Assembly (NCBI GenBank): GCA_030789695.1
Contig: CM061133.1
Location: forward strand, 96,367,128-96,431,127
Source of the DNA: Scilla litardierei
Lineage: Eukaryota; Streptophyta; Magnoliopsida; Asparagales; Asparagaceae
Length of the DNA: 64,000 nucleotides
Reading direction: 5' to 3'
Shown here: positions 14,161-61,765 of the stretch, one piece after another
Numbering within the stretch: position 1 is the stretch's first letter
Layout of the letters: every line of letters begins with the position of its first letter
Notes under the pieces: model-generated
What the model was told of the DNA's origin: nothing
The model's input: the letters and a program-made list of their open reading frames with translations, nothing else
Database searches by the model: none
Translations under genes and position numbers: made by a program

Positions 14161-14170
14161 TAAAAAGAGA

Positions 14171-27855: not shown

Positions 27856-27928
27856 CTGTACGATTCACGTTACATCACTATCCAAACTAGGAAAAAGGAA
27901 ATAAACACGGAGAGTAAAAGAATTTTAC
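27856..27928 (-). other. Predicted intron 2 of Gypsy G
   Basis: 73 nt, donor GAG|GTAAAA and acceptor TACAG|GAGGT. The position matches F exactly (72 nt there). Because the lengths differ by one base, only splicing gives both copies the same downstream frame. Confidence 0.78.
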
Positions 27929-28820: not shown

Positions 28821-29327
28821 TGATCGCTCCAAAATGCAACCCAAGAGCACGACCAAAAACTTGATCGGCCCCGGATATACACCCGGAGAACGATTGTAGT
28901 TTTACCGCAAGTGCACGGCAAAGTGGCAAGCGGGTATCGAACACGAGGAGGTGGTGTTGGCTCCAATCTATCCTAGGTTAGTTTGACTACGAATGTTTTA
29001 TTGGTGGAGATGGTTATGGAATGATATAATGGAAATGGTGGTGGATGTCGGTGTCGATGATAAAGAAATCGGTCAAATATCGATTTAAATACAATATAAT
29101 AAAAGAAGGAATTTGCCTTGCGGCGATCCTGTCACAATCGTCGGGCAAAGTGTGGTGATATAAAATCAAATAAAGACGTCTAGGGCTAGGGAATTCCCAC
29201 TACGGATCGTCATACATCATTGTAAATAGTGAATCTCAATATTACTAGACTTGTGTTGAGGTGAACTAGTCGTAACTGAATAGAGAACCAAGCTCACGCT
29301 CTCGCGCTATTACCGGTCTATAGCAAC

Positions 29328-29629
29328 CTAGATTAGGGCCCAATCTCTTGCAAACCGTAACCTAAGCCGCTAGCATGAAGATTGACATCATCGTCCAATC
29401 GCTCCTCGAGCCCACTCTCGTGCAAACCCGAGTTACGATCTAGGTTGTGATAGTTCGTATTCGTCCAATCTCTTGCAAACGAATATGTGTATAGATTTAC
29501 AATTAAAAATCCTAGCTTTGGTCCAATCTCTTGCAAACCAAATCTAGAGAAACCCAATTGTAAACCTAAATCGAATATCTAGGCCTTCCCATCGATTAGA
29601 ATCCAATCTCTTGCAAATCCCAAATCGAT
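29328..29629 (-). repeat. Constant-loop/variable-stem hairpin array, C 3' LTR
   Basis: Five units share a 16-nt core TCCAATCTCTTGCAAA (or a close variant), each flanked by a different inverted repeat. Cores start at 29339, 29411 (degenerate), 29464, 29522 and 29602. Clear stems are TATTCG/CGAATA around 29464 and TTTGG/CCAAA around 29522; ATCGATT/AAATCGAT is the outer stem at 29602. The collinear array in the 5' LTR is 35261-35562. Predicted to be transcribed in R/U5. Confidence 0.9.
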
Positions 29630-30015
29630 GGAAATCCCTAGCTATCCGTAGGAAATCAATCACAACCTAACCTACTACCAATTCTAGCAATTTAGAAATT
29701 CATTCATCACAAATATGAAATTAGATCCATAGGGTTCATCCCCATGCCCTAGAACAACAAATCTACTCTAGCATAGCAATAAGCATATGAGAATCAATAA
29801 AAATCATTGCTTGCATACAAAAAGATAGAAAAACAAAGATTCAAATAAAAAGAAGAAAATACTTAGCTTGATGAAGATCTTCAATCCAAAATACAAGCTT
29901 TTAGATCCAAGAGGGGGCCTAGGGCATGGCCTAACCTCTAAAATAATCCTAAGAGAAACATATGTGGCTAAGAAAACATAATGGGGATCCCCCTCTAATG
30001 GTGGCTACAAAACCC

Positions 30016-30022
30016 TTAAATA
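30016..30022 (-). promoter_or_regulatory. TATA-like box of C 3' LTR
   Basis: Minus strand TATTTAA, conserved at 35949-35955 and at the collinear place in D (49761-49767, 61000-61006), about 90-100 bp downstream of the palindrome array. Start site not determined. Confidence 0.5.
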
Positions 30023-30119
30023 CTCTCCCCAAAACCCTAACAAATAACCCTAGAAAACCCCTCAAATTCGTGCCCAAAAACAGCCCAAACCGCAACTTAG
30101 AATCTGGGCCCAGGCCACA

Positions 30120-30631
30120 CTCGGCCGAGTGGAATATGTGACCCGGCCGAGTGGAAATTCCAGCAATGCAGCATCAACTTGCAGAAATTCCCCAGATTTC
30201 ATCCGACCTCCGATTTGCGCGTTCTTGGCGGCGTTGGAACCGTCATTGAGTCTACTATCCATAAAAAATATGAGAAAAATACTTTAAATGCTGGAATGAT
30301 AGAAGATTTCAAAAGAGTGAGAGGCTATCTGAAAATCTGGGCGCTGCGTGTCCTCGGCATCACTCGGCCGAGTGGCAAATGTCACTCGGCCGAGGGGCTT
30401 TTGGAACTCGGCCGAGTCGGAGCTCATAGTCGACTGACGGATTACAGAGAGTTGGACATTTTGGCTTGCCGTCGTCTGGGTGCCACTCGGGCGGACGGAG
30501 TCTCCGCACTCGGCCGAGTGGGCGTGCGATGCTCGGCCGAGTGCACGCTGATACATCTCTGTTGCGTGTCTGATCTGGCCGGCCGAGCGGGGTCTCAATG
30601 CTCGGCCGAGTGACTCCTTCACTCGGCCGAG
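30120..30631. repeat. CTCGGCCGAG palindrome array, C 3' LTR
   Basis: Eight exact or near-exact copies of the 10-bp palindrome CTCGGCCGAG, usually within ACTCGGCCGAGTG, plus degenerate ones, spaced 20-90 bp. The positions and spacing match 36052-36563. Lies upstream of the TATA-like box, hence a U3 regulatory candidate. Confidence 0.9.
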
Positions 30632-30939
30632 TGGCATGCTGAAAATGCCCAATCTCCATCTTTTCGCTTCCTCGTCGCTCCTACGACGTTCTTTCTTCTT
30701 CAACTCGTCTTCCATTGCAGAATAATCCTCAAAAGGACCATGGTTGACACTCCGGAGTGGGTGCAAATCCTTTAAGCTCATTTTTTGCTCCCGATCGCTC
30801 CATATTTCCTGAAATCTGACAAAAACAAGAAATAGTGAAAAGCATCGCAATATTGTCGAATAATCTTGAAAACCGCAATATGAGCAATCAAAATGACGTG
30901 AAAACATGCGGAAAAAAGGTGTAAAATATGGAGTGATCA

Positions 30940-32928: not shown

Positions 32929-34533
32929 CTACCCTACTGGATTGATATCACCTATAGCAAAAGGCGGATCCAGTATCTTTGCCGGTGCAGGCAACTGCTC
33001 CAACTGCTCCTTCCGTGGCTCCGCTAGACGCGTATGTCCACGGACTCCATCAGATTCCAGCAATGCGGCTTCCAGCATCTCTCCAAGGACTCCACCTGTA
33101 CCCTGCAAGAGATAAGCCGCATCAATCTGATGTGGATAATTCTTCCCCAAAATAAATGTATTCCAAAGAGGGTCGTCAACATAAGTATTTAAAATTAAAA
33201 ATGGTTGACAACACTTCCCTGGAAATAAATCCCTACTCTCGTATACGACGTCGATCAACTCCTTGTTGTTCGCCTCAGGTTGTTCAGGTAGCTTCGGCAT
33301 ATAAGCGTGGGTTTCATCAGGTAGCTCCTCATCATCATCAGACTTATCCCATCGCACCTCCTGATCATAGTCAATAGCATCCATGGGTGCTAACTCCTCG
33401 CTCTCCTCCTCATATATGTCCCATCGTACCTCTTGATCGTATGTACATGAATCCTGCAAAAGGCACGATGAGTCGTCAAAATCTGAATCATAAAAAACAG
33501 CATACACTGGAGGAGAATCAAATATAGGAGATGAGGGAGTAAAGAGATCTCCCTGAAGGGGAGCCATAAGCTCTGTGGGATTGTCCTCAACATCAGTGGA
33601 AGCGTGGTCCTCTGAGGGATGCTCAGCCTCTGTAGAGGGTGGGGATGGCTGCGGTAGCTCGAAAAGAGGGGGGCACAATTCGGGCTCCATCTGTGTGCAG
33701 ATGTCATCGTCTAAAGTCACGTCCTCCTCGATGGTCTGCTCCGCTACTATAGGCATGACCTCCTCAAAAATATCCTCTGATGGTATAGGCTGCTCTGACT
33801 CAGGTGGGTGGCAGGGGGAGGCGACGACGGCATAAGGTGGCTCTATAGGCTCATGTATCTCGACCATGGTGTAAAAATGGGTCTTGTGCCCCTCAATTAG
33901 AGCGTAGACTCCATCATCAATTGTGCCTGTGGAAGAGATACAATGAGTAATAAAGTTTTGAAATTCAAGCTCAAAAGGATCACCTGCCGTTATTGTCAAT
34001 GGACCGGAATTTCGAACTATGTCGACAATGCTTCTCAATAGGTCCGTGTAAGTGTCCTCCTTTGGCAACTCAGATGTCTCTATTTGTGGAGTGTTGATGG
34101 TATAAAGGTGGATATGATCACCTTCAAGTGAAGCATACACTCCATCTACGATAGTACCTGCGCTAGAGACATTAGCCATAACAAAATCGATGAATACTTG
34201 GTCGTATGGTTTACTTACCGTAACGGTTAGTGAACCGGTAGATCGAGCATCATCTATCATTTGCTCCAAGGCAGCTGCCAACTGTAGATCACTGAACTTC
34301 CCCACTTGCATCCTCTTCAAAAATTCACGTGAGGGTCCCTTTAGCCTTCTAGTGAAGATATCAAATAGCGTGGAGTCATTCCACTCATGGTCTGACTCCG
34401 TCTGGAACATTTCTAACATTCCTTCAAACCTAGACAAGGCTTCCCCGAAGGATTCTCCATCAGCCTGATAGAATGCAGCGAGATATATGTAGGATTGTAT
34501 AGAGCCCGCTCGCATTTTCCTTGGAAGCAACAT
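32929..34533 (-). CDS. Element C Gag-like protein with duplicated module
   Basis: 534 residues, uninterrupted. The first ~95 resemble the end of an Athila/Tat gag domain (FYQADGESFGEALSRFEGML, then LFDIFTRRLKGPSREFLKRM). Two copies of a ~60-residue module follow, at about 87-146 and 163-224. Both have the pattern TG/SG-LT-T...P....F..F.....S..GTI.DGVYA..EG....YT. A single copy begins the D pol protein. The remainder is acidic and proline-rich, with a repeated YDQEVRWD. I see no zinc knuckle, protease or enzyme motif. A splice acceptor-like TTGTTGCAG lies just upstream, so an upstream exon is possible. Confidence 0.7.
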   Translation of the reverse strand: MLLPRKMRAGSIQSYIYLAAFYQADGESFGEALSRFEGMLEMFQTESDHEWNDSTLFDIFTRRLKGPSREFLKRMQVGKFSDLQLAAALEQMIDDARSTGSLTVTVSKPYDQVFIDFVMANVSSAGTIVDGVYASLEGDHIHLYTINTPQIETSELPKEDTYTDLLRSIVDIVRNSGPLTITAGDPFELEFQNFITHCISSTGTIDDGVYALIEGHKTHFYTMVEIHEPIEPPYAVVASPCHPPESEQPIPSEDIFEEVMPIVAEQTIEEDVTLDDDICTQMEPELCPPLFELPQPSPPSTEAEHPSEDHASTDVEDNPTELMAPLQGDLFTPSSPIFDSPPVYAVFYDSDFDDSSCLLQDSCTYDQEVRWDIYEEESEELAPMDAIDYDQEVRWDKSDDDEELPDETHAYMPKLPEQPEANNKELIDVVYESRDLFPGKCCQPFLILNTYVDDPLWNTFILGKNYPHQIDAAYLLQGTGGVLGEMLEAALLESDGVRGHTRLAEPRKEQLEQLPAPAKILDPPFAIGDINPVG

Positions 34534-34747: not shown

Positions 34748-34753
34748 AAAACT

Positions 34754-36871
34754 TGATCGCTCCAAAATGCAACCCAAGAGCACGACCAAAAACTTGATTG
34801 GCCCCGGATATACACCCGGAGAACGATTGTAGTTTTACCGCAAGCGCACGGCAAAGTGGCAAGCGGGTATCGAACACGAGGAGGTGGTGTTGGCTCCAAT
34901 CTATCCTAGGTTGGTTTGACTACGAATGTTTTATTGGTGGAGATGGTTATGGAATGATATAATGGAAATGGTGGTGGATGTCGGTGTCGATGATAAAGAA
35001 ATCGGTCAAATATCGATTTAAATACAATATAATAAAAGAGGGAATTTGCCTTGCGGCGATCCTGTCACAATCGTCGGGCAAAGTGTGGGGATATAAAATC
35101 AAATAAAGACGTCTAGGGCTAGGGAATTCCCACTACGGATCGTCATACATCATTGTAAATAGTGAATCTCAATATTACTAGACTTGTGTTGAGGTGAACT
35201 AGTCGTAACTGAATAGAGAACCAAGCTCACGCTCTCGCGCTATTGCCGGTCTATAGCAACCTAGATTAGGGCCCAATCTCTTGCAAACCGTAACCTAAGC
35301 CGCTAGCATGAAGATTGACATCATCGTCCAATCGCTCCTCGAGCCCACTCTCGTGCAAACCCAAGTTACGATCTAGGTTGTGATAGTTCGTATTCGTCCA
35401 ATCTCTTGCAAACGAATATGTGTATAGATTTACAATTAAAAATCCTAGCTTTGGTCCAATCTCTTGCAAACCAAATCTAGAGAAACCCAATTGTAAACCT
35501 AAATCGAATATCTAGGCCTTCCCATCGATTAGAATCCAATCTCTTGCAAATCCCAAATCGATGGAAATCCCTAGCTATCCGTAGGAAATCAATCACAACC
35601 TAACCTCCTAGCAATTCTAGCAATTTAGAAATTCATTCATCACAAATATGAAATTAGATCCATAGGGTTCATCCCCATGCCCTAGAACAACAAATCTACT
35701 CTAGCATAGCAATAAGCATATGAGAATCAATAAAAATCATTGCTTGCATACAAAAAGATAGAAAAACAAAGATTCAAATAAAAAGAAGAAAATACTTAGC
35801 TTGATGAAGATCTTCAATCCAAAATACAAGCTTTTAGATCCAAGAGGGGGCCTAGGGCATGACCTAACCTCTAAAATAATCCTAAGAGAAACATATGTGG
35901 CTAAGAAAACATAATGGGGATCCCCCTCTAATGGTGGCTACAAAACCCTTAAATACTCTCCCCAAAATCCTAGCAAATAACCCTAGAAAACCCCTCAAAT
36001 TCGTGCCCAAAACAGCCCAAACTGAAACTTAGAATCTGGGCCCAGGCCGCACTCGGCCGAGTGGAATATGTGACCCGGCCGAGTGGAAATTCCAGCACTG
36101 CAGCATCAACTTGAAGAAATTCCCCAGATTTCATCCGACCTCCGATTTGCGCGTTCTTGGCGGCGTTGGAACCGTCATTGAGTCTACTATCCATAAAAAA
36201 TATGAGAAAAATACTTTAATTGCTGGAATGATATCAGATTTCAAAAGAGTGAGAGGCTATCTGAAAATCTGGGCGCTGCGTATCCTCGGCATCACTCGGC
36301 CGAGTGGCAAATGTCACTCGGCCGAGGGGCTTTTGGAACTCGGACGAGTCGGAGCTCGTAGTCGACTGACGGATTACAGAGAGTTGGACATTTTGGCTTG
36401 CCGTCGTCTGGGTGCCACTCGGGCGGACGGAGTCTCCGCACTCGGCCGAGTGGGCGTGCGATGCTCGGCCGAGTGCACGCTGATACATCTCTGTTGCGTG
36501 TCCGATCTGGCCGGCCGAGCGGGGTCTCAATGCTCGGCCGAGTGACTCCTTCACTCGGCCGAGTGGCATGCTGAAAATGCCCAATCTCCATCTTTTCGCT
36601 TCCTCGTCGCTCCTACGACGTTCTTTCTTCTTCCACTCGTCTTCCATTGCAGAATAACCCTCAAAAGGGCCATGGTTGACACTCCGGAGGGGGTGCAAAT
36701 CCTTTAAGCTCATTTTTTGCTCCCAATCGCTCCATATTTCCTGAAATCCGACAAAAACAAGAAATAGTGAAAAGCATCGCAATATTGTCGAATAATCTTG
36801 AAAACCGCAATATGAGCAATCGAAATGGCGTGAAAACATGCGGAAAAAAGGTGTAAAATATGGAGTGATCA
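34754..36871 (-). repeat. 5' LTR of element C
   Basis: 2118 bp, near-identical to 28821-30939. Hairpin array at 35261-35562, TATA-like box 35949-35955, CTCGGCCGAG array 36052-36563. It drives the genomic RNA, so its hairpin array would be in the leader. Confidence 0.93.
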
Positions 36872-38402
36872 ATTCTTCTCATGAACCTTAAGCTGACGAG
36901 ACGCATACGCCACAACATGCCCGTACTGATGCAACACACAACCGAGACCCTTGCCAGAAGCATCGCAAAAGATCTCAAATCCACCGCTGCGATCAGGCAC
37001 AGCAAGAACATGGGCAGTCGTCAGTCTCTCCCTCAGCACACCAAAAGCATTCCCACAATCACCCGACCAAACAAAAGGTACATCCTTCCGCGTCAATCTG
37101 GTCATCGGCTCAGTAATACGGGAAAAGTCCTTAATGAAACGCCGATAATATCCCGCCAAACCAAGGAAACTCCGGATCTCGGACGCTGACGACGAAACAG
37201 GCCACTCTCTGATGACCCTAATCTTCTCGAGATCCACTGAAATACCATCTCCAGTCACCACATGCCCGAGAAAAGAAACTCGGTCCAGCCAAAACTCGCA
37301 CTTTGAAAACTTAGCATACAACCGATGCTTCCTCAAAATCTCCAACACCGTCCTCAAGTGCGAGGCATGCTCTTCCTTCGACTTTGAATAGATCAGAATG
37401 TCGTCAATAAAAATAACGACAAACTTATCCAAAAAGTCATAGAAAATCAGGTTCATCAGATTCATGAAAACTGCGGGTGCGTTAGTCACGCCGAAAGGCA
37501 TAACCACAAACTCATAGTGTCCATACTTCGTCCTGAAAGCTGTCTTCGGCACATCATCCTTCTTCACCTTCGACTGATGGTAACCACTCCTCAAATCCAA
37601 TTTAGAAAACACCCTCGAACCTCCTAGCTGATCAAAAATATCATCGATGCGAGGCAACGTGTATTTATTCTTAATGGTCATCGCATTCAACTCCCGATAG
37701 TCAACGCACATGCGACGCGAACCATCCTTCTTCTTCACCAGCAGCACCGGTGCTCCCCACGAAGACACGCTGGGATTAATGTAACCCTTCTGCATAAGCT
37801 CATCCAACTGCTTCCGCAACTCTTCTAATTCCGCAGGCGCCATACGGTATGGTGCCTTCGAAATCGGCTGCGCACCTGGAATCAAATCAATAGAAAACTC
37901 CAAAGCTCGATCAGGCGGCAATCCAGACATCTCCTCGGGGAAGATGTCACCAAAATCTTGCACCACAGCTGGCCACTCCAACTCCATCTGCATAGCCACA
38001 ACATCCATCGGTCTGGCCCGAAATCTGACCGGACCCAGCGAACTGCTACTACGGCTGAACTCAAATACTGGATGTCCGGGAATCTCGAACACCACCCTCT
38101 TCCTCCGACAGTCAATCGTAGTATAGAAGCTCGCAAGCCAATCCATCCCAAAGACCGCATCGTAGTTGGTGATGTTGTGGACAATAAAATCAGCTAAAGC
38201 TCATGTCCACAAACCACCACAGAGCAAGGGCTGCACCCACGATGCACCGAGACTACTCCATTCCCCGTAACGATGTTCCAACTCTTGGAGAGAGGGGACG
38301 TCGACAAGGAATGCTTCTCCACGAAGCTCTGGGCCAAAATGCACATCGACGCACCTGAGTCAAAGAGGACTCGGGCATGGAATGTGCAAACCAAAACCAC
38401 AC
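36872..38402 (-). pseudogene. Gypsy G protease and RT
   Basis: Starts after intron 1 with [17 protein letters not shown] one-base loss near 38197 shifts the frame within protease (F reads [11 protein letters not shown] here). From 38146 the frame is open through RT ([23 protein letters not shown]) and RNase H start ([11 protein letters not shown]) to the insertion of C at KVHEKN. Confidence 0.9.
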
Positions 38403-38514
38403 CTAACAAACAGTCTAATCAATCAAATCTTATTCTAATAACATTCATACACAAGCAACCAACAAAATTTTAACAATCAACCAATTAAGAAGGAACAACT
38501 AGATTGAAAGTTAC
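38403..38514 (-). other. Predicted intron 1 of Gypsy G
   Basis: 112 nt. Donor ACAG|GTAAC, acceptor TGTTAG|GTGTG. Same exon edges as in F, with a clearly diverged interior. Unspliced RNA ends Gag about 11 codons inside the intron. Confidence 0.78.
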
Positions 38515-39642
38515 CTGTAATGACCTCATCCATGTCCAAAATCTCCTCCTCGGTCATCAAAAATGCCTGCCTCCTTGGCGGAACAGCCTGCCGAAAGGCA
38601 TGCCCTTGTGGAACAAGGGGTACCCCACGACCTGCGGGCACCGGGGCTCTCTGCTGCAACGGCGGGGCAGCAATAGGTGCCCGCCAAGGCTGCTTCAACC
38701 TCGGGCACTCCCTGAGAGCATGAGCGGGATCTCCACAGGCAATACATTGCCCCAAGAACTTCCTACACGATTCCTTGATATGGCCCTCCTTGCCACAGAA
38801 ATGGCAAGTCTTCCGAACAGGCCCTCCTGGCCTCTTAAACTGAACAGGCTGGTTCGGCCTGAATCCAGGTCTAACCACAGCTCTCGCCTGTTCCACAGGC
38901 CTCTTCCCAGCACCAACAATAGACCCCTCCTCTGGTTCACGAGCAGCTCCTGCCTCTTGGCTGCTACTAAAACCTTCTGATAAGATTCCCGGTCGGAAGA
39001 GGTCACAAAACTCTGGAGCTCCAAAGCAAGTCCCTGCAGGAACCTCTGAGCTCTCTCCTCAGCGTCCTGCACCATCTTCGGTGCAAACCGACTCAGCCTC
39101 ATGAACTCTTGGTGATACCGGTCCACCGACGAGCTTCCCTGCTTCAGATCGATAAAACGCTGCAGCATCTCTTCCCTTGCAGCTTTTGGGAAGAACTCAC
39201 CATCAAATCTGGCCTTGAAGGTAGCCCAGACGATCGGCTCCTCCAACATCTTCTCTTCAGCATCCCACCAATTCCTGGCGTTATCCCTCAGCTGGCGCTT
39301 TGCCAAGTCAACCCAACTAACTTCGTTGACCTTGGACATCTTCAGATTTTCCTCGATATTCCTCATCCATTCATCAGCAGCTAGTGGACCTTCGGTTCCA
39401 TCAAAGTATGCAGGACCCAGCTCCCTGAACTGCTTCGCCCCAGGCTCAGGGCGAGGGGCTTCCACTACCCGAGCAGCTCGAGCCACCGGAGCATTCTGTA
39501 CCTGCAGAAGCACACCCTGCTGAACTTGCATCATCTGCATCATCATCCGCATCATCTCTCCGTTAGTGGGCTCCCGCTCAGGCTCCTCGTCATGAGAGGG
39601 CGCACCACTACCACCACCACGGGTGATTCGCCTTCCTGCCAT
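38515..39642 (-). pseudogene. Gypsy G gag (frameshifted)
   Basis: Same protein as F gag: MAGRRITRGGGSG start, gag domain with ARNWWDAEEK and RYHQEFMRLSRFAP, CCHC knuckle CHFCGKEGHIKESC. Gln is intact at the site of the F stop (KRQELL). A one-base loss near 38930 splits it into two overlapping frames. Confidence 0.9.
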
Positions 39643-39783
39643 CTAATGACACAGAAAACGAAACAATTAGACTCATAGCTTAGGGCTCAGATGTCGAACT
39701 TATTTGTTGGACAATCTTATATTATTATCGTTATCCCAATAATTGCAGTTACAGAAGGACCTGCATGGGCCACCACTAAAACC
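39643..39783 (-). other. Gypsy G leader and primer-site region
   Basis: 141 nt between LTR and gag. The bases next to the LTR (GGTTTTAGTGGTGGCCC, minus strand) are identical to those in F; primer tRNA unassigned. Confidence 0.5.
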
Positions 39784-42319
39784 TGTCACGCCCAGCTTCC
39801 CTAAAATGGAGGCGAGACGTGAGAAGGTCCGCTCAAGCGTGGAGCTGTGAAGCTGCACGCCCGATAAGCGTAAATTTAGTATAAGCAGGTCCCTGTAATT
39901 GCAAACGAAACAACAACAATAATTATAATAATATGAGACGGATATGAAATACCAATCCCACAGTTTGTCCACAAAATATTCAACATCACAGAAAAGCCAC
40001 CAGGCTAAAAGAAAGAGTCTAAAGGCCCAGAACAAGGCCAAACAAAAATACAAACATAACAGAGTATCAAACTAGGTGCCACGCACCGACAACCTAAGCA
40101 ATCTAACAAACTAGACGTAGACACTAAGACTGATCTCCAGTGTCTACGAAGTCCTCGTCCAACACGGGCGCAAGCTCGGCGTCCGCAAACACCTCACCCT
40201 CAGCAAGCAACTCTGGCTCGGGGTCTAACATGTGTCACCCAATAGAGAAAAGGGGGCACATGTCAGCAAGTCTAAAAGACTTGGGCAAGGAAACTGAAAG
40301 TAACTAACAACCTAGCACGTACAACATTAAACAATGACATGACAGTTTAGTTGATGCAGCAGTTTAAAAGAGAGACAAGCACACACGATGTAGCGAAAGC
40401 TACCAATTCACTAATCACTTTTCACTTATCACTGTTTATCACTTAGTGCATAGAGAGTCCACCTGCTGGCCAGCTCGTGGCTCAGGCCGCTTATCTCTTA
40501 TCAATATTAATCACTTATACACTAGAGATTTCGCCTGCTGGCCGGAGTGGCGGATCAGGCCAACTCGGGGCTCATGTGGCCGCATATCTCTTACCCCACC
40601 CATATGTGTCGAGCGTTGGGGTTTCCAACTACATGGCCCGCTTCTAGAACACGAGCCAGGAAAATAATAGTATTGTAGCGTGTGCTACACAATCACGATG
40701 AATAATCAATATGCAATGCCATGAACAGATATTTGCGTACCGTTAATAGGAATTAAACATGACAGGCAAAGATGCAGGAATGATATGAACAGATAATTGC
40801 GTACCGTTAATTGAATTTAAACGTGACATACAAGCATAATGAGGGTGACGGATCTAGCTTCGTTGTCAAGCTAGATCAAAGGCGTCCAGACAGCTATCCT
40901 TTCACTGTCTAGTCTCTTTTATGCTAAAACAAGGTAATGGCCTAAGCACGGCCTAAACAACAAGGGTAGCAAGTTTCACTTGCCTGATACCGGGGTTGAC
41001 GAGCAATGAAGATCGTCACAAGCTAAACTACGGATGGATCACTGTTATGGCAAAACAATCATTAGAACAACGATTCTAAATCGATTTCTTATTAGAATCC
41101 TAACTTCTAATAATCCATTTTATTAGGGTTTCACAATGTCAATGGGGGTTATGCTAAAACTAAAGGAATCGAGTATTACCGTAAAGAAGCGGAGGAACGA
41201 TGCCGAGCAACCACGGCAACGGAAGAACGATCCGGCTCAGATCTGGAAATGAGGGAAAAATCTGGAGAAATGGGTTTTGATGTGGATTTTGGGGGTTTGA
41301 TGAAGGTTTGGGGAAGATGGAAGGTGAGTTGTGACTAGGGAGGGTTTGGATGATGGAGGATGAGCTTGGGATGGAGGATTAATGGTTTGAGGAAGATGGG
41401 GGCTCAATGGGGGAGAAATTAGGGTTTTAGGTCGTGAGAGAGAAGAAGAAAACGTTTGGAGGGGTATTTATAGAGTTTGGTGGCGGCTAGGGCAAAACTA
41501 GGGTTAACAGCACTGGTTAGTCGGTCAAAGAACAACCACTGACCGACTAGTTTGGGAACTAGTCGGTCGGTTGACCAATACAGACCGACTAAGTGTAAAC
41601 AGTAGCTTCAGTCGAAAACCTGAACTAAGAGTTAGTCGGTCAAAGAACAACTACTGACCGACTAGTTTGACATCTAGTCGGTCGATGACCGTTCTTAGAC
41701 TGACTAAGAGTAAACAGTAACTCGACTGTACAGAAGAACTAAGAATTAGTCGGTCTGAGTACAAAACTTAACCGACTAGTTTAACAACTAGTCGGTCGAA
41801 AGATGAACTTAGACCGACTAATAATGAACAGTACTGATACCAAGAAAATAGTAAATGAGTTAGTCGGTTAAAGAAGCATTGCAGACCGACTAGTTTGCAA
41901 CCTAGTCGGTCAACCAATGTTCTTAGACCGACTAACGACAAACAGTAACTCCTGAATAACTTTTCAAGCCCGCTAGTCGGTTCAAGAAGGTTTTCCGACC
42001 GACTGGATCGTCATCTAGTCGGTCGGTGCCACTTCTTATACCGGCTAACGTGCACCAAAAGTTCCGAAATGGAGCGCTAAGCTCCGGGATGCTTTCCTAA
42101 GTCTCCTAGGCTCGTTCTAACTCTAAGATATCGACGTTATGAAGCCCGTCACGAATGACTTACTTCAAACACACCGACCGACGGAAGAATCTAGAGAATC
42201 ACGACGAAACGGACGAAAATGAAAACTACGGAGACGGAAAAAGGAAATCACAACAAGGGAAAGCAATCAAATATATAATATTCATAATAAAATCAATACA
42301 TGAAAAACCAGTCGTTACA
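39784..42319 (-). repeat. 5' LTR of Gypsy G
   Basis: 2536 bp, plus-strand ends TGTCACGCCC and GTTACA, same length as the reassembled 3' LTR. TATA-like box 41465-41472, U3 palindromic array 41518-42050. Confidence 0.94.
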
Positions 42320-48709: not shown

Positions 48710-49070
48710 TGATCGCACCCCGGCGTACACGTCCCGAGGCGACGGTTGTAGTTTTACCGCAAGCGCACGGTATAGCGGCGAGCGGGTATCGAACACAGGG
48801 AGGACGAATGACCGTGCTTGCTCCTAATCAACCTGGCTATTTAGAGGGATAATTGCCTTGGGTGATCCTGTCACAATCGTCAGACAAAAGTGCGAAATAT
48901 CAAATCAAATAAAGAACGCCTAGGGAATGGGGAATCCCCACTACTCACCGTATTTCACAAATGTGGTTCGCCGGTATCGAAATCGCTAGGATGAGAATTT
49001 GGATGAACTAGTTGCAACTAAATGTGGAACCAAGCTCACGCTCTCGCGCTGTTGCCGGTCTATAGCTATC

Positions 49071-49369
49071 CTAGGTTTGGGTCCAATCTCTTGCAAACCC
49101 TAGCCTAGGGAAGCTAGCATTAGGATCAACATCATCGTCCAATTGCGCACCGAGCCCAATCTCTTGCAAACTCGGTCCACAATCTAGATTAGGATAGTTC
49201 CTACCCGTCCAATCTCTTGCAAACGGGTATCGGCACGGAATTGCAACCGGAGATCCTAGCATCGGTCCAATCTCTTGCAAACCGATACTTCGAAAATCCG
49301 ACTCCAACCCAATTCGGATTTCTAGGGCTTCCTATCGAATTGGGATCCAATCTCTTGCAAATCCCAATT
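49071..49369 (-). repeat. Constant-loop/variable-stem hairpin array, D 3' LTR
   Basis: Five units around TCCAATCTCTTGCAAA. Cores and stems: 49082 with an 11-bp imperfect stem CTAGGTTTGGG; 49155 with ACCGAG/CTCGGT; 49208 with TACCCG/CGGGTA; 49266 with ATCGG/CCGAT; 49346 with AATTGGGA/TCCCAATT. The last four are perfect. Collinear with the array in C and repeated at 60310-60608 in the other D LTR. Confidence 0.93.
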
Positions 49370-49852
49370 GATGTGAATACCTAGCTATCCGTAGTAATTC
49401 GATCCCAATCTAATCCCTAATAACAATCCTAGCTCAATTTTTACCAATTCAACACAAATACGAAATTGGGCTTGTAGGGTTCATCCCCACGCCCCAAGAC
49501 GTGGAGACTACTCACTAATCATAGCAATAGCACAACAATTAGCAATGAAATAGACAATGGAATTCATCACAACAATGATATAAACAATAAAAATAGAGTT
49601 TTTGGGGAAGAGAAGTGCAAACCAATGTAGATCTTCAATCAACCCAACAAAAATCCAAGTTTTTCTCTTCTCCAATCACAATTAATAAAACTAAAAAGTA
49701 GACTCAAAAAGCTGCAAAAAATCTGAGAGGTGGCTCCCAAAACTAGGGTAAAAACAGAGCTTAAATAGCCCCAAAAATCGTCTAAAAATCCTGACCAAAA
49801 TGCCCCTGCACAGCCTGTTTTCCGCAAATTTCGCTACAGGCTGCGCATCGCA

Positions 49853-50230
49853 CTCGGCCGAGTGACAAATGTCGCTCGGCCGAGTGAAAACCCTGTCAAT
49901 TTTCCAGTAAGTCGGGGGCTTCAGGGGTCTTCAGTTCGGGGGCGGCTCGGCCGAGTGAGTTGTCGTCACTCGGCCGATGGCTTCACTTCACTCGGGCGGA
50001 CGGGATTTGCCACTCGGCCGAGTGGGTCTTCTGAAGCTCAGATGGCCGAAAAACAGTAACTTCGATCTTTTTGAGGGCCTTCGTCTGGGCGCCACTCGGG
50101 CGGACGTGGTATCGTCACTCGGCCGATGTGGTCTCCGTCGCTCGGCCGAGTACACATGGAAATCGTGTCTGAACGGGTCGGCCGAGCAGTGTCTCGCTGG
50201 TCGGCCGAGTGGCTCCTCCACTCGGCCGAG
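49853..50230. repeat. CTCGGCCGAG palindrome array, D 3' LTR
   Basis: Five exact and about five near copies (CTCGGCCGAT, GTCGGCCGAG) upstream of the TATA-like box. Repeated at 61092-61469. Confidence 0.9.
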
Positions 50231-50526
50231 TGGGACACAAAAAATGCCCAAACTGGTCGTTTTGGCCTCCTCGTCGCTCCGGCGACGTCCATTCTTCTTC
50301 CGCTCCTCTCCAATAGCAAAATACCCCTCGGGGAGGTCGTCGGTGGCCGTCTATCGTGAGCGCATCTCATGATCACTCCAAATCGCGCCAAATCGCCTGA
50401 AATGCGACAAAAACAACAAAGCGTGAAAAGCATCGCAATATCGTCGATATATCGTGAAAAACATGATTTGGGCGATCTAAATGGCATGCAAACATGCGGA
50501 AAAAGGTGTAAAATAAGGAGTGATCA

Positions 50527-52510: not shown

Positions 52511-54697
52511 CTAAGAAGGCGGTGCCGCGCCGTCTCCGTCCTGAGGCGGAGGTGGTGGTGGTGGTGTGGGCTGCTGAGCTGGGGTGGAAGCGGAAGCAGG
52601 TCTAGTGTGTGTGGAAGTGTGTGTGGGAACCTGCTGGGTGGGCTGGGGTACGCGAGGGAGACGCTCCAGCACCTGTGTAAGGCAGTAGTGGATCTGGGGT
52701 ATCAGGTCGAAGCGTCCAGCAATCGCAGAGACGGTGGAGGACAGGGTCCTAAGGTCTCCTCTAAGACCACTCACCGCCAACTCAAGAGCACGTATGCTCT
52801 GCAGTGTAGTGTCGGGCGGGGGTGGGGCAGAAGGACGCACCGGTCTAGGCTGCGCAGGGCGAGGCTGGCGTACGCGTGTGGAGTATGTAACGGGCTCAGC
52901 AGGGAATGGGACAAAAGGTGCCGCGCCTGGAAAAGTGGGCCTAGCCTCGGTGTGAGGCCGGGACACCAGCTGGCGAGAAGTGGAGGCAGCGGCAGCAAAG
53001 GAGGCGTGCAAAAGAGGCAACGAGGTGGCCAGAGAGGTCCGTGGCACAGAAGTGTGGACAGACGCCACGACACTCTCGGAGAAAACGGCGGCAGTGGAGA
53101 CAGAGGAATCTCCCGCTGGGGCAGAAGTGTGCGGTCCAAAAGGTGTAACCCCAGCGGAGATCATGCTAACCATGGTCTCCACGACCGCGGTGAACGAGGG
53201 CTCTCCACTCTCAACAAAGGTCTGCGGGCGATGGGGGAGAGCGGAGCAAAGGGGCTCCACGGACAGAGGGCCGGAGGTGGCAGCAGGAGTGGTGGGGACA
53301 GCCTCGGAAGTGGTGACAGTGGTGGAAGTGGGCTCAGCAAAAGTACTCTCGACACAGGCAGAGGTGGGGACAGAAGTGTCAAGAGCAGTGGAAAAGTCAG
53401 GAACAGGCTGAGAGGCCACAGGGTCGACGGGGTGGGCAGCAGGCTCGGAAGGGTGTGCAGCAGGGTCTGCGGGAGCAGCGTGGGCAGCGTGGGCCTGCTC
53501 GGCCTCCTCGGCCTCGAGCACGTAGGCGGTGGGAATGAGGACATCCATCGCCGGAATCCAGTCAACGTGGGCTGGTGCAATCAGAGTCCGAGCAGGGCTC
53601 GGGAGAATCATGTAATCGGCCCCATAGGGGCCGTGCAACCAGACCCAGTGACGCTCACCATGCGGACGCAGCATCTTCATCCGGGCCATAACGTCTATCG
53701 ACAAGGAAGTGGGGCCCGGAACGCGTCGCAGGTCGTCGGGTAGGTCCTCGTCGGTCATCATGGTAAGCAAGGTGATCAGACCGCCGCAGCATATCGGTGA
53801 GCGAGCGCCCACCGACACAATGATACGGTCTAGAAACCAAGCCGCAATGTCGATCACGACGGCGGGGACAAGCTCGAGTCCATCCCTAGACAGAGCTCTG
53901 GGACGTGTCATCGCGTAGAGCATGTAAAGATCTGGCGTAGACATCGTGCCCGGCTCATATCTGGCCAAAAAGGTAGTCGCCATAAGGCGCTGGGCAATGC
54001 GTAGGCAGGGGTGGACTATGGCCGAGGCCTTGGCCCTACTAGGGTCAAAGGCAGCGTGGTGGCCTGTGATCCGGGCCCAGAAGGCACCGGCGTCGAAAGA
54101 AGGTGGGGGGATGTGGGTAGGGCCGTAACCGCGATCGGCTCCGGGGACGGCGGGCCATGAGAAAAATGCTCTCATCATATCGAGAGTGACCTGGCACTCT
54201 CGATCCATGAACCGGAATGAGCATCCCTCATCGGTCCGGGCGATCGAACTCAAAACCTCAAGTGTCAGGCGGGTAAAAGTATCCGCCGACACTTGAAGGA
54301 AGTCGCGCCAACCCACGTTGTCGTACAACGTGAGTATCCCCTCAAGTACCCCAAGGCGTCCAAGGTCAGCGAGGTGTGCAAACCTGGAGGGTACGATCGA
54401 GCGCTGGGAGATACGCTCGAAGACGGCGCGGTGTGCGTCGTCTCGGAACGTAATCCCGAGCGGCCCGACCAGTGGAGCCGGTGGTGGTGGCTGTGGATCG
54501 GCAGGGAGAGGCTGTGCGGGCTGTGGCTGCGCTGCAGGCTGTGCGGGGTGTGCGGGGCCTGCAGGCTGTGCTGGGTGTGCGGTGTGTGTGGGGGACGGTG
54601 GAGGAGAGTCCTCCAACTCGTGGGAGGGGCCGGCATCATCCGACCGCTTCCGCTTGGCGGAAGCTCTCTTCGACCGCGGCCGTGTCCGGGGCGGCAT
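52511..54697 (-). CDS. Env-position ORF of element D (ATHILA ORF1-like domain)
   Basis: 728 residues, intact. A basic start (MPPRTRPRSKRASAKRKR) is followed by a Pro/Ala/His/Gln-rich low-complexity stretch. The folded domain at about 95-400 contains ERISQRSIVPSRFAHLADLG, FTRLTLEVLSSI, FRFMDRECQVTLDMM and a helical run (AAWFLDRIIVSVG). The tail is Ser/Thr/Pro-rich. The domain resembles the plant 'Arabidopsis retrotransposon ORF-1'/Athila family, as judged from memory of its pattern. I see no signal peptide and no convincing transmembrane anchor, so an envelope role is not supported by the sequence; position alone suggests the label. Confidence 0.7.
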   Translation of the reverse strand: MPPRTRPRSKRASAKRKRSDDAGPSHELEDSPPPSPTHTAHPAQPAGPAHPAQPAAQPQPAQPLPADPQPPPPAPLVGPLGITFRDDAHRAVFERISQRSIVPSRFAHLADLGRLGVLEGILTLYDNVGWRDFLQVSADTFTRLTLEVLSSIARTDEGCSFRFMDRECQVTLDMMRAFFSWPAVPGADRGYGPTHIPPPSFDAGAFWARITGHHAAFDPSRAKASAIVHPCLRIAQRLMATTFLARYEPGTMSTPDLYMLYAMTRPRALSRDGLELVPAVVIDIAAWFLDRIIVSVGARSPICCGGLITLLTMMTDEDLPDDLRRVPGPTSLSIDVMARMKMLRPHGERHWVWLHGPYGADYMILPSPARTLIAPAHVDWIPAMDVLIPTAYVLEAEEAEQAHAAHAAPADPAAHPSEPAAHPVDPVASQPVPDFSTALDTSVPTSACVESTFAEPTSTTVTTSEAVPTTPAATSGPLSVEPLCSALPHRPQTFVESGEPSFTAVVETMVSMISAGVTPFGPHTSAPAGDSSVSTAAVFSESVVASVHTSVPRTSLATSLPLLHASFAAAASTSRQLVSRPHTEARPTFPGAAPFVPFPAEPVTYSTRVRQPRPAQPRPVRPSAPPPPDTTLQSIRALELAVSGLRGDLRTLSSTVSAIAGRFDLIPQIHYCLTQVLERLPRVPQPTQQVPTHTSTHTRPASASTPAQQPTPPPPPPPQDGDGAAPPS

Positions 54698-55892: not shown

Positions 55893-57275
55893 TCAATCAA
55901 TGCGGGATGTTTGGTGCATATGAGATGCACCCGTCAAACTTTCCGGGGAGCGCGCTTGGATTCGAACGTGGCGGCGTAGCGTTCTCCCGCGGTGGTCTCC
56001 TATCTCGAATAGTGTTGGGGGAGGCTCCCCCAAGCTAGCATTTGCCCCGGTCAACGGCTTAACCGGCGATGCCGATTTCCGTACCGGCGGAGCTTTCTTT
56101 GGAGACTTTGATTTCGAGAGCTTGCAGAGCTCTCGAATCCTTGTGACATCAGCGTCGCCTTCATCTTCATCAGCGGAGAAGTCGGGGGAATCGTCTTCAA
56201 TCTTTTCATCTCGGCCTAAATCCGGGCCTTCATCAAATTCTTCATCAAAAAGGGCACCAATTGAGTGAGGAATCGCCTCCTCTATCACCTCATCAAGGAG
56301 GTCCGAGAGATCATCCGACCGCTCTTTAAGCAAATATACTCTATTGATTTCGCCCGTCGGGATCCCCTCGGAATAGTGCTTTAGCCTTTGCCCATTTACT
56401 TTGAATGTGGTACCTTCCTTGCTTTCCAACTCGAAAGCTCCTCCCGGTTGTATGTGCTTGATGGTGAAAGGTCCCGACCAACGTGACCTCAACTTACCGG
56501 GAAATAGTCGGAGTCGGGAATTGTAGAGCAAGACCTTGTCTCCCACCTTGAAGTCCGTGACAGTTATGCGGGCATCGTGGAAAATCTTGGTCCTTTCCTT
56601 GTAAATTCTCGAGCTCTCATAAGCGTCTCTCCTTATTTCATCAAGTTCGTTGATGTCCAAGAGTCGCCTCACCGCCGCACTCTTATAATCGTAGTTAAAG
56701 GTCTTGATGGCCCAATATGCGCGGTGTTCCAACTCTACCGGCAAGTGGCAAGCCTTCCCATAAACTAGGCGGAACGGTGTGGTACCGATGGGGGTGCGAA
56801 AGGCCGTGCGATAGGCCCATAGAGCATCGTTTAGCTTCATTGACCAATCCTTTCTAGACCGATCTACTGTTTTCTCGAGAATTTGCTTGATTTCTCTATT
56901 TGAGACTTCTACTTGGCCGCTTGTCTGGGGGTGATAAGCCATTCCAACTCTATGATTTACCCCGTACTTCTTTAGCATGGCTTCAAACTTGTTCTCTATG
57001 AAGTGGCTTCCCCCGTCACTTATCAAGGTACGCGGCACTCCAAAGCGCGGAAAGATATTTTGCTTGAAGAATTTGGAGACGACCCTCGCATCATTAGTAG
57101 GGGTGGCAATAGCTTCCACCCATTTGGAGACATAGTCAACAGCCAATAGGATGTACTTGTTGCCATTGCTCGACGGAAAAGGCCCCATGAAGTCTACTCC
57201 CCAACAATCAAAAAGCTCAATCTCATGGATGGGTCTCATCGGCATCTCATTGCGCTTGGAGATATTCCCGGTCCG
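55893..57275 (-). pseudogene. Element D integrase
   Basis: Continues pol in the same frame after a TAA (57276-57278) in the zinc region following CDRC, where a Gln codon (CAA) is expected. The D-D-E triad is present: [18 protein letters not shown] and [10 protein letters not shown]. Then come [20 protein letters not shown], the GPF-type region ([14 protein letters not shown]) and an acidic tail. About 450 codons open. One substitution separates it from the upstream frame. Confidence 0.9.
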
Positions 57276-59777
57276 TTAACATCTATCGCAACCCTTCACA
57301 AAAGCGTGAGTGTCTTTAAACATTGTGGGCCAGAAGAATCCGCTCTGCAAGATCTTAGCGGTTGTTTTAGAGGCGGCATGATGTCCCCCGCATGGTAGAC
57401 CGTGGCAATGCAAAATGATAGACGTTGCCTCCTCTTTAGAAACACACCTACGAATGACACTATCTTTGCATATCTTGAAAAGGTAAGGATCTTCCCAAAA
57501 ATAGCTACGGACCTCATGCATAAATCTCCTCTTTTGTTGCGTGGACATCCCATGCGGTTTGATTCCGCACGCCAAGTAGTTGACGAAGTCCGCGTACCAA
57601 GGTACTTCCTCGGTCCTTACCGCATATAGCCTCTCATCAACAAATGTGTCGTCAATAGGTAAGCTCTCATCCTCCTTGTCGCGAATGAGCCTAGATAAAT
57701 GATCCGCCACGACATTGTCTGTACCCTTCTTATCTCTGATCTCTAGGTCGAATTCTTGCAACAAGAGTATCCACCTAATCAACCGGGGTTTGGCCTCCTT
57801 CTTGTTTAAAAGATACTTCAATGCCGCATGGTCGGTGTGGACAATCACCTTGGAACAGAGGAGGTAGGAGCGAAACTTCTCTATGGAATAGACGACCGCT
57901 AGAAGCTCCTTTTCGGTAGTTGTGTAGTTTTTCTGCGCGTCATCCAATGTCTTGCTTGCGTAGTATATCGCATGAAGCTTCCTATCTTTCCTTTGTCCCA
58001 ATACCGCTCCAATGGCTTGGTCGCTAGCATCGCATATTAGCTCAAAAGGGAGGCTCCAATCCGGCGGTTGAATGATGGGCGCTGAGACTAGCGCTTCCTT
58101 CAAGGTGTTGAAAGCTTGCAAGCATTCTCCTGAAAATTCAAAAGGAACATCTTTAGCGAGTAAGGAAGTAAGTGGTCTGGCAATCGAGGCGAAATCCTTA
58201 ATGAAGCGGCGGTAGAACCCCGCGTGACCAAGGAAGCCTCTAATGCCCTTAATATTAATAGGAGGAGGAAGTTTTTCGATTACCTCAATTTTAGCTTTAT
58301 CTACCTCGATTCCTCTTGAGGAAACAAGATGCCCGAGGACTATACCTTCCGTGACCATGAAGTGACACTTCTCCCAATTGAGAGTGAGATTGTTTTGTTG
58401 GCACCTTTTTAGGACTTTAGTGAGATTTTCCAAGCAAGAGTCAAACTCACTTCCGTAAACCGAGAAATCATCCATAAAAACTTCCATAATATTTTCAATA
58501 TAATCGGAAAATATGGATGTCATACATCTTTGAAAAGTGGCGGGAGCATTACAAAGGCCGAACGGCATCCTACGGTATGCGTAGGTGCCATAGGGACAAG
58601 TGAAAGTTGTCTTTTCTTGGTCATCTTGGTGCAAAGGGATTTGGAAAAAACCCGAATACCCGTCTAGATAGCAAAAGTATTTATGGTTCGCGAGGCGTTC
58701 AAGCATTTGATCGATGAATGGCAATGGGTAATGGTCCTTTCGGGTGGCTTTATTGAGTCTCCTATAGTCAATGCACATTCGCCATCCCGTGACAGTGCGC
58801 GTGGATATTGGCTCACCTTTGTCATTTTTTATGACAGTCATCCCTCCTTTCTTGGGGACGACGTGGACGGGGCTAACCCATCTACTGTCAGAGATAGGAT
58901 AAATTATACCGGCTTCAAGCAATTTTAGGATTTCCTTTTTAACCACCTCCTTCATGTTCGGGTTCAACCGCCTTTGAGGCTCTATGGAGGTGGCTTCGGT
59001 ATCCTCCAAATGGATCCGATGCGTGCAAAGCCTAGGGCTTATCCCTTTAAGATCGGAGATAGTGTATCCCAAGACATCTTTGTGGCTCCTAAGGACGTCT
59101 AGGAGTTTTTCAAGTTGATCTTGTGTGAGGTGGGAATTGACTATCACCGGAAAAGTCAATTTATTACCCAAAAAGGCATACCTTAGATTCGGCGGTAATT
59201 GTTTAAGCTCTACCTGAGGTGGCGCTGCTTCTTCCACCTTTTCAGCTCGCATGAATTCGGCTTCTTCCTTATCATCCTGGTTTAGCTCATCTTCAGGTGG
59301 AATGCTTTCTTGTGACGAGTCGGACTCGCTACTTAGTGAGGATGAGGCATCGAAGTAGGCGCCCTCTGATTCAGTGCTAGCATCGCCAAAACCTTCACTC
59401 TGCTCCAGTTCGTACCTGGAATCAAGAAACACATCAGACGATTCATAAAAACAAGAGTGAGCGTCATAAAGTGTAACACCCGGAATGTCGGTTTGCTCGA
59501 AGGGTTCTTCGGGAGCATAGTGCTCTTCGACATTTGCTCTATTGTCTTCGAAATACAATTTGTCGTCGACCACGTCAACTCTGACATTGCCTCTGATAGT
59601 TCCTTCCGGGGAGATTTGGTCCATCACAAAGCTAGCAAATAGTTGTTCGTCGGGGTCCGTGATATTGATAGCAAATGCTCCGGTAGCGTGGACCTCGTCG
59701 ACAAGCTCCTTAAGGAGGTCTGTGAAGGTGTCATAGTCTTCTCAACTGAGTTCTATTGTTGGCGTTGCATCCCCCAT
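57276..59777 (-). CDS. Element D pol: N-terminal module, RT and RNase H
   Basis: About 830 codons from ATG 59777. A TGA (59742-59744) lies 12 codons in, so translation may instead start at the Met at 59627. The N-terminus carries one copy of the module duplicated in C's protein ([22 protein letters not shown]), then an acidic linker. RT is of Athila type: [36 protein letters not shown] and active site FMDDFSVYG. RNase H has [15 protein letters not shown] and [10 protein letters not shown], then DHLSRL and the integrase zinc region. No DSGA or DLGAS protease motif occurs anywhere in it. Confidence 0.9.
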
Positions 59778-59927
59778 TCTCCCTGTTAAGATCTTATGCG
59801 AAATGCGGGGAGAATATGCAAATAGGGCTACGAATGAAGTTAGGATAAGATAGAGAGGGAAGTAAAGGAAGAAAGTAAGAAGAAATAACCGGGTGGTCGG
59901 TGCCGATCACCGTCAAAATGCCCTTCC

Positions 59928-59942
59928 CCAGCAACGGCGCCA
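59928..59942 (-). other. Primer-binding site of element D (Asp-tRNA type)
   Basis: Minus strand TGGCGCCGTTGCTGG, six bases from the LTR. Differs from C by one base. Confidence 0.75.
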
Positions 59943-59948
59943 AAAACT

Positions 59949-61765
59949 TGATCGCACCCCGGCGTACACGTCCCGAGGCGACGGTTGTAGTTTTACCGCA
60001 AGCGCACGGTATAGCGGCGAGCGGGTATCGAACACAGGGAGGACGAATGACCGTGCTTGCTCCTAATCAACCTGGCTATTTAGAGGGATAATTGCCTTGG
60101 GCGATCCTGTCACAATCGTCAGACAAAAGTGCGAAATATCAAATCAAATAGAGAACGCCTAGGGAATGGGGAATCCCCACTACTCACCGTATTTCACAAA
60201 TGTGGTTCGCCGGTATCGAAATCGCTAGGATGAGAATTTGGATGAACTAGTTGCAACTAAATGTGGAACCAAGCTCACGCTCTCGCGCTGTTGCCGGTCT
60301 ATAGCTATCCTAGGTTTGGGTCCAATCTCTTGCAAACCCTAGCCTAGGGAAGCTAGCATTAGGATCAACATCATCGTCCAATTGCGCACCGAGCCCAATC
60401 TCTTGCAAACTCGGTCCACAATCTAGATTAGGATAGTTCCTACCCGTCCAATCTCTTGCAAACGGGTATCGGCACGGAATTGCAACCGGAGATCCTAGCA
60501 TCGGTCCAATCTCTTGCAAACCGATACTTCGAAAATCCGACTCCAACCCAATTCGGATTTCTAGGGCTTCCTATCGAATTGGGATCCAATCTCTTGCAAA
60601 TCCCAATTGATGTGAATACCTAGCTATCCGTAGTAATTCGATCCCAATCTAATCCCTAATAACAATCCTAGCTCAATTTTTACCAATTCAACACAAATAC
60701 GAAATTGGGCTTGTAGGGTTCATCCCCACGCCCCAAGACGTGGAGACTACTCACTAATCATAGCAATAGCACAACAATTAGCAATGAAATAGACAATGGA
60801 ATTCATCACAACAATGATATAAACAATAAAAATAGAGTTTTTGGGGAAGAGAAGTGCAAACCAATGTAGATCTTCAATCAACCCAACAAAAATCCAAGTT
60901 TTTCTCTTCTCCAATCACAATTAATAAAACTAAAAAGTAGACTCAAAAAGCTGCAAAAAATCTGAGAGGTGGCTCCCAAAACTAGGGTAAAAACAGAGCT
61001 TAAATAGCCCCAAAAATCGTCTAAAAATCCTGACCAAAATGCCCCTGCACAGCCTGTTTTCCGCAAATTTCGCTACAGGCTGCGCATCGCACTCGGCCGA
61101 GTGACAAATGTCGCTCGGCCGAGTGAAAACCCTGTCAATTTTCCAGTAAGTCGGGGGCTTCAGGGGTCTTCAGTTCGGGGGCGGCTCGGCCGAGTGAGTT
61201 GTCGTCACTCGGCCGATGGCTTCACTTCACTCGGGCGGACGGGATTTGCCACTCGGCCGAGTGGGTCTTCTGAAGCTCAGATGGCCGAAAAACAGTAACT
61301 TCGATCTTTTTGAGGGCCTTCGTCTGGGCGCCACTCGGGCGGACGTGGTATCGTCACTCGGCCGATGTGGTCTCCGTCGCTCGGCCGAGTACACATGGAA
61401 ATCGTGTCTGAACAGGTCGGCCGAGCAGTGTCTCGCTGGTCGGCCGAGTGGCTCCTCCACTCGGCCGAGTGGGACACAAAAAATGCCCAAACTGGTCGTT
61501 TTGGCCTCCTCGTCGCTCCGGCGACGTCCATTCTTCTTCCGCTCCTCTCCAATAGCAAAATACCCCTCGGGGAGGTCGTCGGTGGCCGTCTATCGTGAGC
61601 GCATCTCATGATCACTCCAAATCGCGCCAAATCGCCTGAAATGCGACAAAAACAACAAAGCGTGAAAAGCATCGCAATATCGTCGATATATCGTGAAAAA
61701 CATGATTTGGGCGATCTAAATGGCATGCAAACATGCGGAAAAAGGTGTAAAATAAGGAGTGATCA
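59949..61765 (-). repeat. 5' LTR of element D
   Basis: 1817 bp. Hairpin array 60310-60608, TATA-like box 61000-61006, palindrome array 61092-61469. The CACAG duplication follows at 61766-61770. Confidence 0.94.

Follow-up and report, generated by a model that had tools for sequence, protein, structure and literature searches.

Four long terminal repeats (LTRs) in a 64,000-nt stretch of Scilla litardierei DNA (hereafter the window) each carry a series of short hairpins with nearly identical tips and with stems that differ from unit to unit. This arrangement raises the question of whether the pairing is under selection, whether it acts as RNA or as DNA, and which function it might serve. The LTRs belong to two elements, C and D, whose features are collected in Table 1; hairpin units are numbered in sense order.

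The elements and their hairpin arrays

Table 1. Positions in the window of the C and D elements, their reading frames and the units of the hairpin array
Feature	Position	Strand	Remarks
D LTR, 3' in sense	48710..50526	-	self-BLAST, 99.8% identical to 59949-61765; TG...CA ends
D LTR, 5' in sense	59949..61765	-	self-BLAST; TG...CA ends
C LTR	about 28819-30940	-	self-comparison, 98.4% identical to the other C LTR
C LTR, 5' in sense	about 34752-36872	-	self-comparison
D ORF, RVT_1, RNase H and integrase zinc-binding domains	57276..59627	-	fixes the sense strand
D ORF, integrase core	55893..57245	-	domain match
D ORF, PF03078 ATHILA ORF-1 match	52511..54697	-	E 4e-10
C ORF, 534 aa, gag position	32929..34533	-	only interior ORF of at least 180 aa
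TATA-like TATTTAA	49761..49767	-	about 406 nt upstream of the U1 core; D copy 61000-61006, C about 35949-35955
Hairpin U1	49334..49373	-	core 49346-49361; long stem; 94.4% of stem cells paired; both-side changes in 6/11 pairs
Hairpin U2	49260..49287	-	core 49266-49281; plus-strand stem ATCGG/CCGAT; 90.8% paired; both-side changes in 3/5 pairs
Hairpin U3	49202..49229	-	core 49208-49223; stem TACCCG/CGGGTA
Hairpin U4	49149..49176	-	core 49155-49170; inner stem CAA/UUG in D, CAC/GUG in most copies
Hairpin U5	49070..49109	-	core 49082-49097; stem GGG/CCC plus CCTAGG/CCTAGG
Sixth GAGA hairpin, GCGC-GAGA-GCGT	49038..49049	-	after U5, beyond the interval of the original prediction
Five-unit array and sixth hairpin, D 5' LTR	60277..60612	-	cores 60321-60600
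Array and sixth hairpin, C 5' LTR in sense	35229..35562	-	cores 35272-35550
Array and sixth hairpin, other C LTR	29296..29629	-	cores 29339-29617

The pol reading frames of D are encoded by the minus strand, which therefore corresponds to the sense RNA, and C is taken to run likewise by homology of its LTRs to those of D. In sense order, the RT/RNase H frame of D precedes the integrase-core frame, which is the pol arrangement of the Ty3 type, and as read from its sequence D is an Athila-type element of plant Ty3/gypsy. Inspection of its ends revealed the 5-bp target duplication CTGTG on both sides. The 5' LTR of D is followed in sense by the primer-binding-site-like TGGCGCCGTTGCTGGGGA, which we take to be the primer-binding site, and a primer-site-like TGGCGCCGTTGCYGGGGA lies just past the LTR end in both C and D, with presumably the aspartate tRNA as its match. 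Pol is present and a full gag ORF absent in this copy of D; a short coding stub occupies the expected gag position (59627-59948), and the ATHILA ORF is placed after the integrase, not ahead of pol.

C is connected with D through homologous LTRs, short interior stretches and its 534-aa ORF, which has no Pfam match and weakly resembles the stub of coding sequence at the 5' side of D (E about 2e-7). At the DNA level the two interiors match in no more than five stretches, each 22-75 bp long, of which two lie at the ends. Comparison of the three D proteins with the C interior yielded nothing better than E 2.7, leaving C without detected Athila proteins; neither reverse transcriptase nor integrase was detected in the interior of the one examined C copy, and the CCHC zinc-knuckle pattern is absent from the interiors of both elements. 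Many CTCGGCCGAG-like palindromes lie in U3 upstream of the TATA-like box (D 49850-50235 and 61089-61474; C 36040-36570). Elsewhere in the window, an uninterrupted copy of the C target, an empty site, is found at 1-4669 (93% and 86% identity to 27851-28821 and 36871-40516), and 9600-25140 holds large inverted and direct repeats (about 91-99% identity) resembling nested elements.

The original prediction had described five collinear hairpins in each of the four LTRs, and all 20 cores were indeed located. At up to 3 mismatches the window contains 21 core matches, against 1.14 expected and a maximum of 4 in 100 shuffles. The flanks of a unit pair with each other at 5.49 of 6 positions (180 cases), whereas exchanging flanks among the units of an array lowers this to 3.02 (720 cases), which agrees with the claim that each unit has its own stem; the C and D stems that had been quoted for comparison were also correct. 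The additional sixth hairpin is looser than the five units: by hand count from the flank table, 48 of 68 arrays have all 4 of its pairs and 58 have at least 3.

A search of the whole genome, suggested alongside the original prediction, found about 199,000 exact cores, far beyond the window. Allowing up to one mismatch, the 16-mer has 186,894 matches in the 3.68-Gb genome, against 55 for a reversed control. The exact 15-mer TTTGCA-x-GAGA-y-TGG occurs in 166,684 copies with A/T at x/y and in 31,788 with C/G; together with the mixed states C/T (242) and A/G (291), the four variants total 199,005, reversed controls giving 0-2 matches per search. At five units each, this number would correspond to roughly 40,000 arrays. 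Among viral contigs, 94 stretches contain the 15-base core, with one match each in the 80 listed and no array among those listed.

Our alignment of 68 arrays, limited to those with at least 4 units in register, comprises the 4 window arrays, 34 that lie in the initial 3.6 Mb of C1 and were drawn from the first 100 listed places of the 16-mer search, and 30 chosen for the C/T core. A larger set holds 97 five-unit arrays; 3 of the 30 loci picked for the AG core (L167-L196) gave no five-unit array. Merging of exact duplicates reduced 68 arrays to 65, 97 to 92, and 38 to 36. Core composition, flank swap, C-D identity, the TATA count and linkage were assessed on unselected arrays only.

The order of the five units is the same in all 68 arrays, with spacings of about 80, 58, 53 and 73; the largest departure seen is 43 instead of 58 in L117. 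Between C and D (38 arrays), identity is 0.43-0.53 for the greater part of the more distant 300 nt upstream, 0.65-0.73 immediately ahead of the array, 0.75-0.83 within it and 0.86 immediately beyond it; after a drop it climbs back to 0.79 toward the end of the LTR. Loci L127, L128, L154, L157 and L164 have a third stem type, an intermediate one with ATCCG/CGGAT or nearly so in U3, that mixes C-like with D-like units, which suggests recombination between the families or an intermediate lineage. Distances between fetched regions in the C1 sample fall into classes: five pairs of neighboring C-type LTRs in the same orientation are spaced 5.0-6.0 kb, five such D-type pairs 10.0-11.2 kb, and one intermediate/intermediate pair 9.9 kb, leaving out a C/C pair at 6.7 kb, a C/C pair of opposite orientation at 6.0 kb, a C/D pair at 5.0 kb and an intermediate/D pair at 6.5 kb. 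Each same-type neighboring pair would represent one element.

Covariation of the stems and the sense strand

Pairing was scored over 52 named pairs (37 outer, 15 inner). In total 95.4% of the cells are paired, a count in which the picking of CT-core and AG-core loci inflates the unpaired inner cells, as it does in the tree-event tests below; six controls slid by 1-3 columns reach at most 51.9%. Changes on both sides occur at 17 pairs, with a shuffle mean of 11.4 and only 1 of 500 shuffles as high.

Because cells are inherited, changes were also counted on the tree and then randomly reassigned among the same columns. For the outer stems of the 65 distinct arrays this gave 11 compensatory doubles, whereas 200 reassignments averaged 1.77 and never exceeded 6; 95.4% of the cells are paired, against 84.3% in the null. 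The 92 distinct arrays gave 8 doubles (null mean 1.50, maximum 5) and 95.1% against 84.5%. Independent compensatory events are thus few (8-11).

Linkage offers a complementary view, using 36 distinct arrays not picked for core variants. The 13 paired variable columns have a median r2 of 0.80, compared with 0.21 for the 1374 other column pairs within 60 nt (p 0.0025), and r2 is at least 0.9 in 3 of the 13 and in 87 of the 1374. The U3 pairs 173-196 and 174-195 switch between C-G and U-A with r2 of 1.00 and 0.89. Rare intermediates in pairs with r2 of 0.80-0.89 are G-U six times and C-A once, and 3 of the 13 paired columns display no linkage (r2 0.10, 0.09 and 0.00).

The selected RNA structure with covarying stems put forward in the original prediction is supported by these partner controls, tree-event and linkage tests, all of which name the structure. 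The outcome that the prediction itself had listed as refuting, a larger alignment lacking significant covariation, did arise in one test: a structure-blind G-test, run with an average-product correction and a tree null like that of R-scape, gave 0 significant results among 58,996 column pairs at E<0.05. We ascribe this negative result to the two-clade phylogeny, since the deep split lets many unpaired columns covary just as strongly and leaves a structure-blind test little power.

The nature of the substitutions points at the strand on which the structure forms. One C unit, CTCGAG/CCCGAG, had been described as containing an A-C mismatch, which is true of the plus strand; in sense, the same position is a G-U pair. 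At this unit, 13 of 16 C-type copies have CTCGAG/CTCGAG (hand count). Over the outer and extended stems, read on the sense strand, changes from Watson-Crick to G-U outnumber those to A-C by 97:44, and on internal branches by 40:11 (p 6e-5), compared with 112:127 for the same two transition classes in unpaired columns (Fisher, p 3e-5 overall and 4e-5 on internal branches). The 92-array set gave 133:72, with 54:12 on internal branches. The bias is weaker on terminal branches (57:33), as expected if single copies decay. Such an excess is expected of a structured sense RNA; neither a DNA structure nor antisense RNA would yield the bias.

The tip of the hairpin

With both elements taken to lie on the minus strand, the functional core reads TTTGCAAGAGATTGGA. 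Among the core letters of 180 units, U1-U3 are conserved at 99-100%, G4 at 98%, C5 at 96%, A6 at 100% and each letter of GAGA at 99.4%; position 16 is mostly A or G. The exceptions are positions 7 and 12, which hold A/U (140 each) or C/G (38 and 40). The second core, CAC-GAGA-GUG, thereby alters both sides of a potential inner stem.

These matched changes speak against the original description of the core as an unpaired 16-nt loop. Probably the sense core UUUG-CAA-GAGA-UUG-GA is a small bulged hairpin, with an inner stem of 3 bp closed by a GAGA tetraloop of the GNRA type. Under independence, about 26,900 copies of each inner-stem intermediate would be expected in the genome; 242 (CT) and 291 (AG) were seen. 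With intermediates this rare beside the 31,788 copies of the second core, an open 16-nt loop is disfavored. A U-A compensated inner pair (x/y = T/A) has only 27 copies. The inner closing pair is A-U or C-G with r2 of 1.00 in U4 and U5, although only 1-2 independent double events underlie it. On the tree, 2 inner-stem compensatory doubles are found with 65 arrays and 1 with 92 (null mean 0.2-0.4, maximum 2). The huge copy counts therefore reflect inheritance or conversion between units, besides selection; few independent events would also result if one core converted another within an array.

Folding predictions are in partial agreement. For the common core, ViennaRNA pairs U1 with A16 and U2 with G15, leaves U3 and G4 as a bulge and forms CAA/UUG below GAGA (15 window units), with inner-pair probabilities of about 0.56-0.69. 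The CG core in U4 of C favors an alternative pairing, its inner stem having a probability of about 0.23, and the RNAalifold consensus pairs UUUG with letters of the UGGA side in units 1-4. We prefer the inner CAA/UUG stem to the RNAalifold pairing because it accounts for the double change at positions 7 and 12, a change that favors the inner stem in both cores. Altogether, the array is well supported as a conserved RNA structure of five bulged hairpins and a looser sixth, with covarying stems and near-constant UUUG...GAGA tips.

Candidate functions of the array

In 35 of 38 arrays a TATA-like match precedes U1 by 380-421 nt, in keeping with the original placement of the array downstream of such a box, and this position predicts that the array is part of the R/U5 leader. 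With a transcription start ~30 nt past the box, the array would be included in all transcripts. If the tips are the recognized part and the stems only hold them in place, it would be clear why the stems drift through paired changes while the tips stay fixed. Drifting paired stems, fixed tips, several equal tips, a predicted leader position and retention in an element with no detected pol together resemble packaging signals. We hypothesize that the tips are read by the nucleocapsid part of Gag from coding relatives, in which case pol-less C-type elements could be packaged in trans, and six tips within about 340 nt could attract several Gag molecules per RNA. The array is kept in pol-bearing D and in C, where no pol was detected, and this sharing, together with the spacing classes, fits a signal read in trans. 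From sequence evidence, we consider the chances about even that this conserved leader structure of Athila-type elements is a multivalent Gag-binding packaging signal.

Known packaging signals offer partial parallels. In Moloney MLV, several stem-loops act together and NC binds exposed UCUG, according to the accessible part of PMC7599994. The core encapsidation signal there (SL-B, SL-C and SL-D) likewise consists of adjacent leader stem-loops, and UCUG recalls the near-invariant UUUG of our units; it has three stem-loops with NC at a linker, whereas here there are five near-identical GAGA-tetraloop tips, known from sequence. BARE2, which lacks Gag, is described in the available portion of PMC3735527 as packaged in trans with conserved dimerization and packaging signals. 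The likeness lies in the trans packaging of an incomplete element; BARE1 and BARE2 are Ty1/copia elements, and that portion of the paper mentions no array of hairpins with identical tips. Retrozymes, with their hammerhead ribozymes, are likewise structured RNAs in non-autonomous plant retrotransposons (PMC4918200, in part). They are set apart from the present elements, as no Rfam family matched over its gathering threshold in the 64 kb; in the D 5' LTR at E up to 1, the single match (E 0.43) is on the opposite strand and outside the array. Open-licence papers yielded no described element of this form, and the core letters, searched as text, led to no paper on retrotransposons as judged by titles and abstract openings. 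More tentatively, and with a probability we place somewhat short of even, the array could represent an undescribed class of multivalent cis-signal, made of bulged GNRA hairpins whose stems are interchangeable and whose tips do not vary; one Gag would read it in trans, and Athila-type families, whether autonomous or pol-less, would share it as one packaging code over roughly 40,000 LTRs of the genome.

A structured leader could instead control translation, the hairpins and a short upstream ORF leading to ribosome bypass or reinitiation, as leaders with upstream ORFs and structure are known from plant pararetroviruses (PMC5902531, in the part available). The predicted leader is long, about 1.2 kb with 7 upstream ATGs in D and 1.4 kb with 19 in C, and a conserved ATGATG between U4 and U5 (about 49109-49149, sense) starts an ORF of 9-11 codons in 71 of 92 distinct arrays. 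Its products include MMLILMLACLG and MMSIFMLVA. The ORF is absent in 18 of the 92 arrays, however, and 29 codons long in 3; in C and D its stop falls, by eye, within the 5' arm of U5 and not ahead of one large hairpin. Translation control alone would also leave five near-identical tips unexplained, and we regard it as unlikely. A similarly low probability is assigned to binding of the tips by a host RNA-binding protein in place of Gag, with a role in nuclear export, stability or silencing evasion. It draws on the same sequence evidence, including the recognition-type conservation of UUUG and GAGA, and these data do not separate host-protein from Gag binding. We know of no host partner for such tips.

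The commonest core contains the self-complementary TTGCAA, which might form kissing-loop RNA dimers as in the HIV-1 DIS and Ty1 (PMC4588261 and PMC5454406, both in part). This is improbable because the CG core breaks the palindrome, its 31,788 copies retaining only TGCA, and the CAA of TTGCAA sits in the inner stem of the predicted fold. Ty1 leader hairpins are needed for dimerization and packaging, as tested through compensatory mutations in the accessible text of PMC5454406; there, two different loops pair with each other, whereas here the second core disrupts the palindrome.

Still less probable is a role of the inverted repeats as DNA, as protein sites, cruciforms or recombination points. 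Palindromic LTR repeats can be transcription activator sites, as the available part of PMC2829016 describes for the CGG-CCG palindromic RMs of Sireviruses, likewise repeated dyad motifs in plant LTRs. According to the same text these lie upstream of the TATA box. Within C and D it is the CTCGGCCGAG palindromes of U3 that look like them, not the hairpin array farther downstream; Sireviruses are copia elements. Folding z-scores give no clear separation of the strands: values over the array are moderate (D array, sense -2.6 to -2.7, antisense -0.6 to -3.8), both strands being similar in several windows, and the GC-rich U3 repeats attain stronger values than the array. On the other side, the folding energy of the three 150-nt windows covering D LTR 1101 to 1450 is lower for the sense strand than for the antisense strand, and the array is downstream of the TATA-like box. 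The sense-strand excess of changes to G-U over those to A-C disfavors DNA-level palindromes. That the pairing is a functionless inherited relic, its matched changes stemming from the deep split into C and D clades that differ at many linked sites, would suit the negative structure-blind test and is highly improbable, as the slid, shuffled, event-reassigned and linkage controls all favor the true outer-stem partners.

LTR retrotransposons fill large plant genomes, and their packaged RNAs are poorly understood; as of 2013, little was known of plant LTR retrotransposon RNA packaging beyond BARE, by the account in the accessible part of PMC3735527. The array provides a concrete candidate signal for pol-less elements that may borrow the machinery of coding elements. 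The division between stems, in which only pairing is maintained, and tips, in which the letters are fixed, directs attention to what a protein or RNA partner would be expected to recognize. At about 200,000 units per genome, five to each LTR, these hairpins constitute a natural mutation library for testing the structure.
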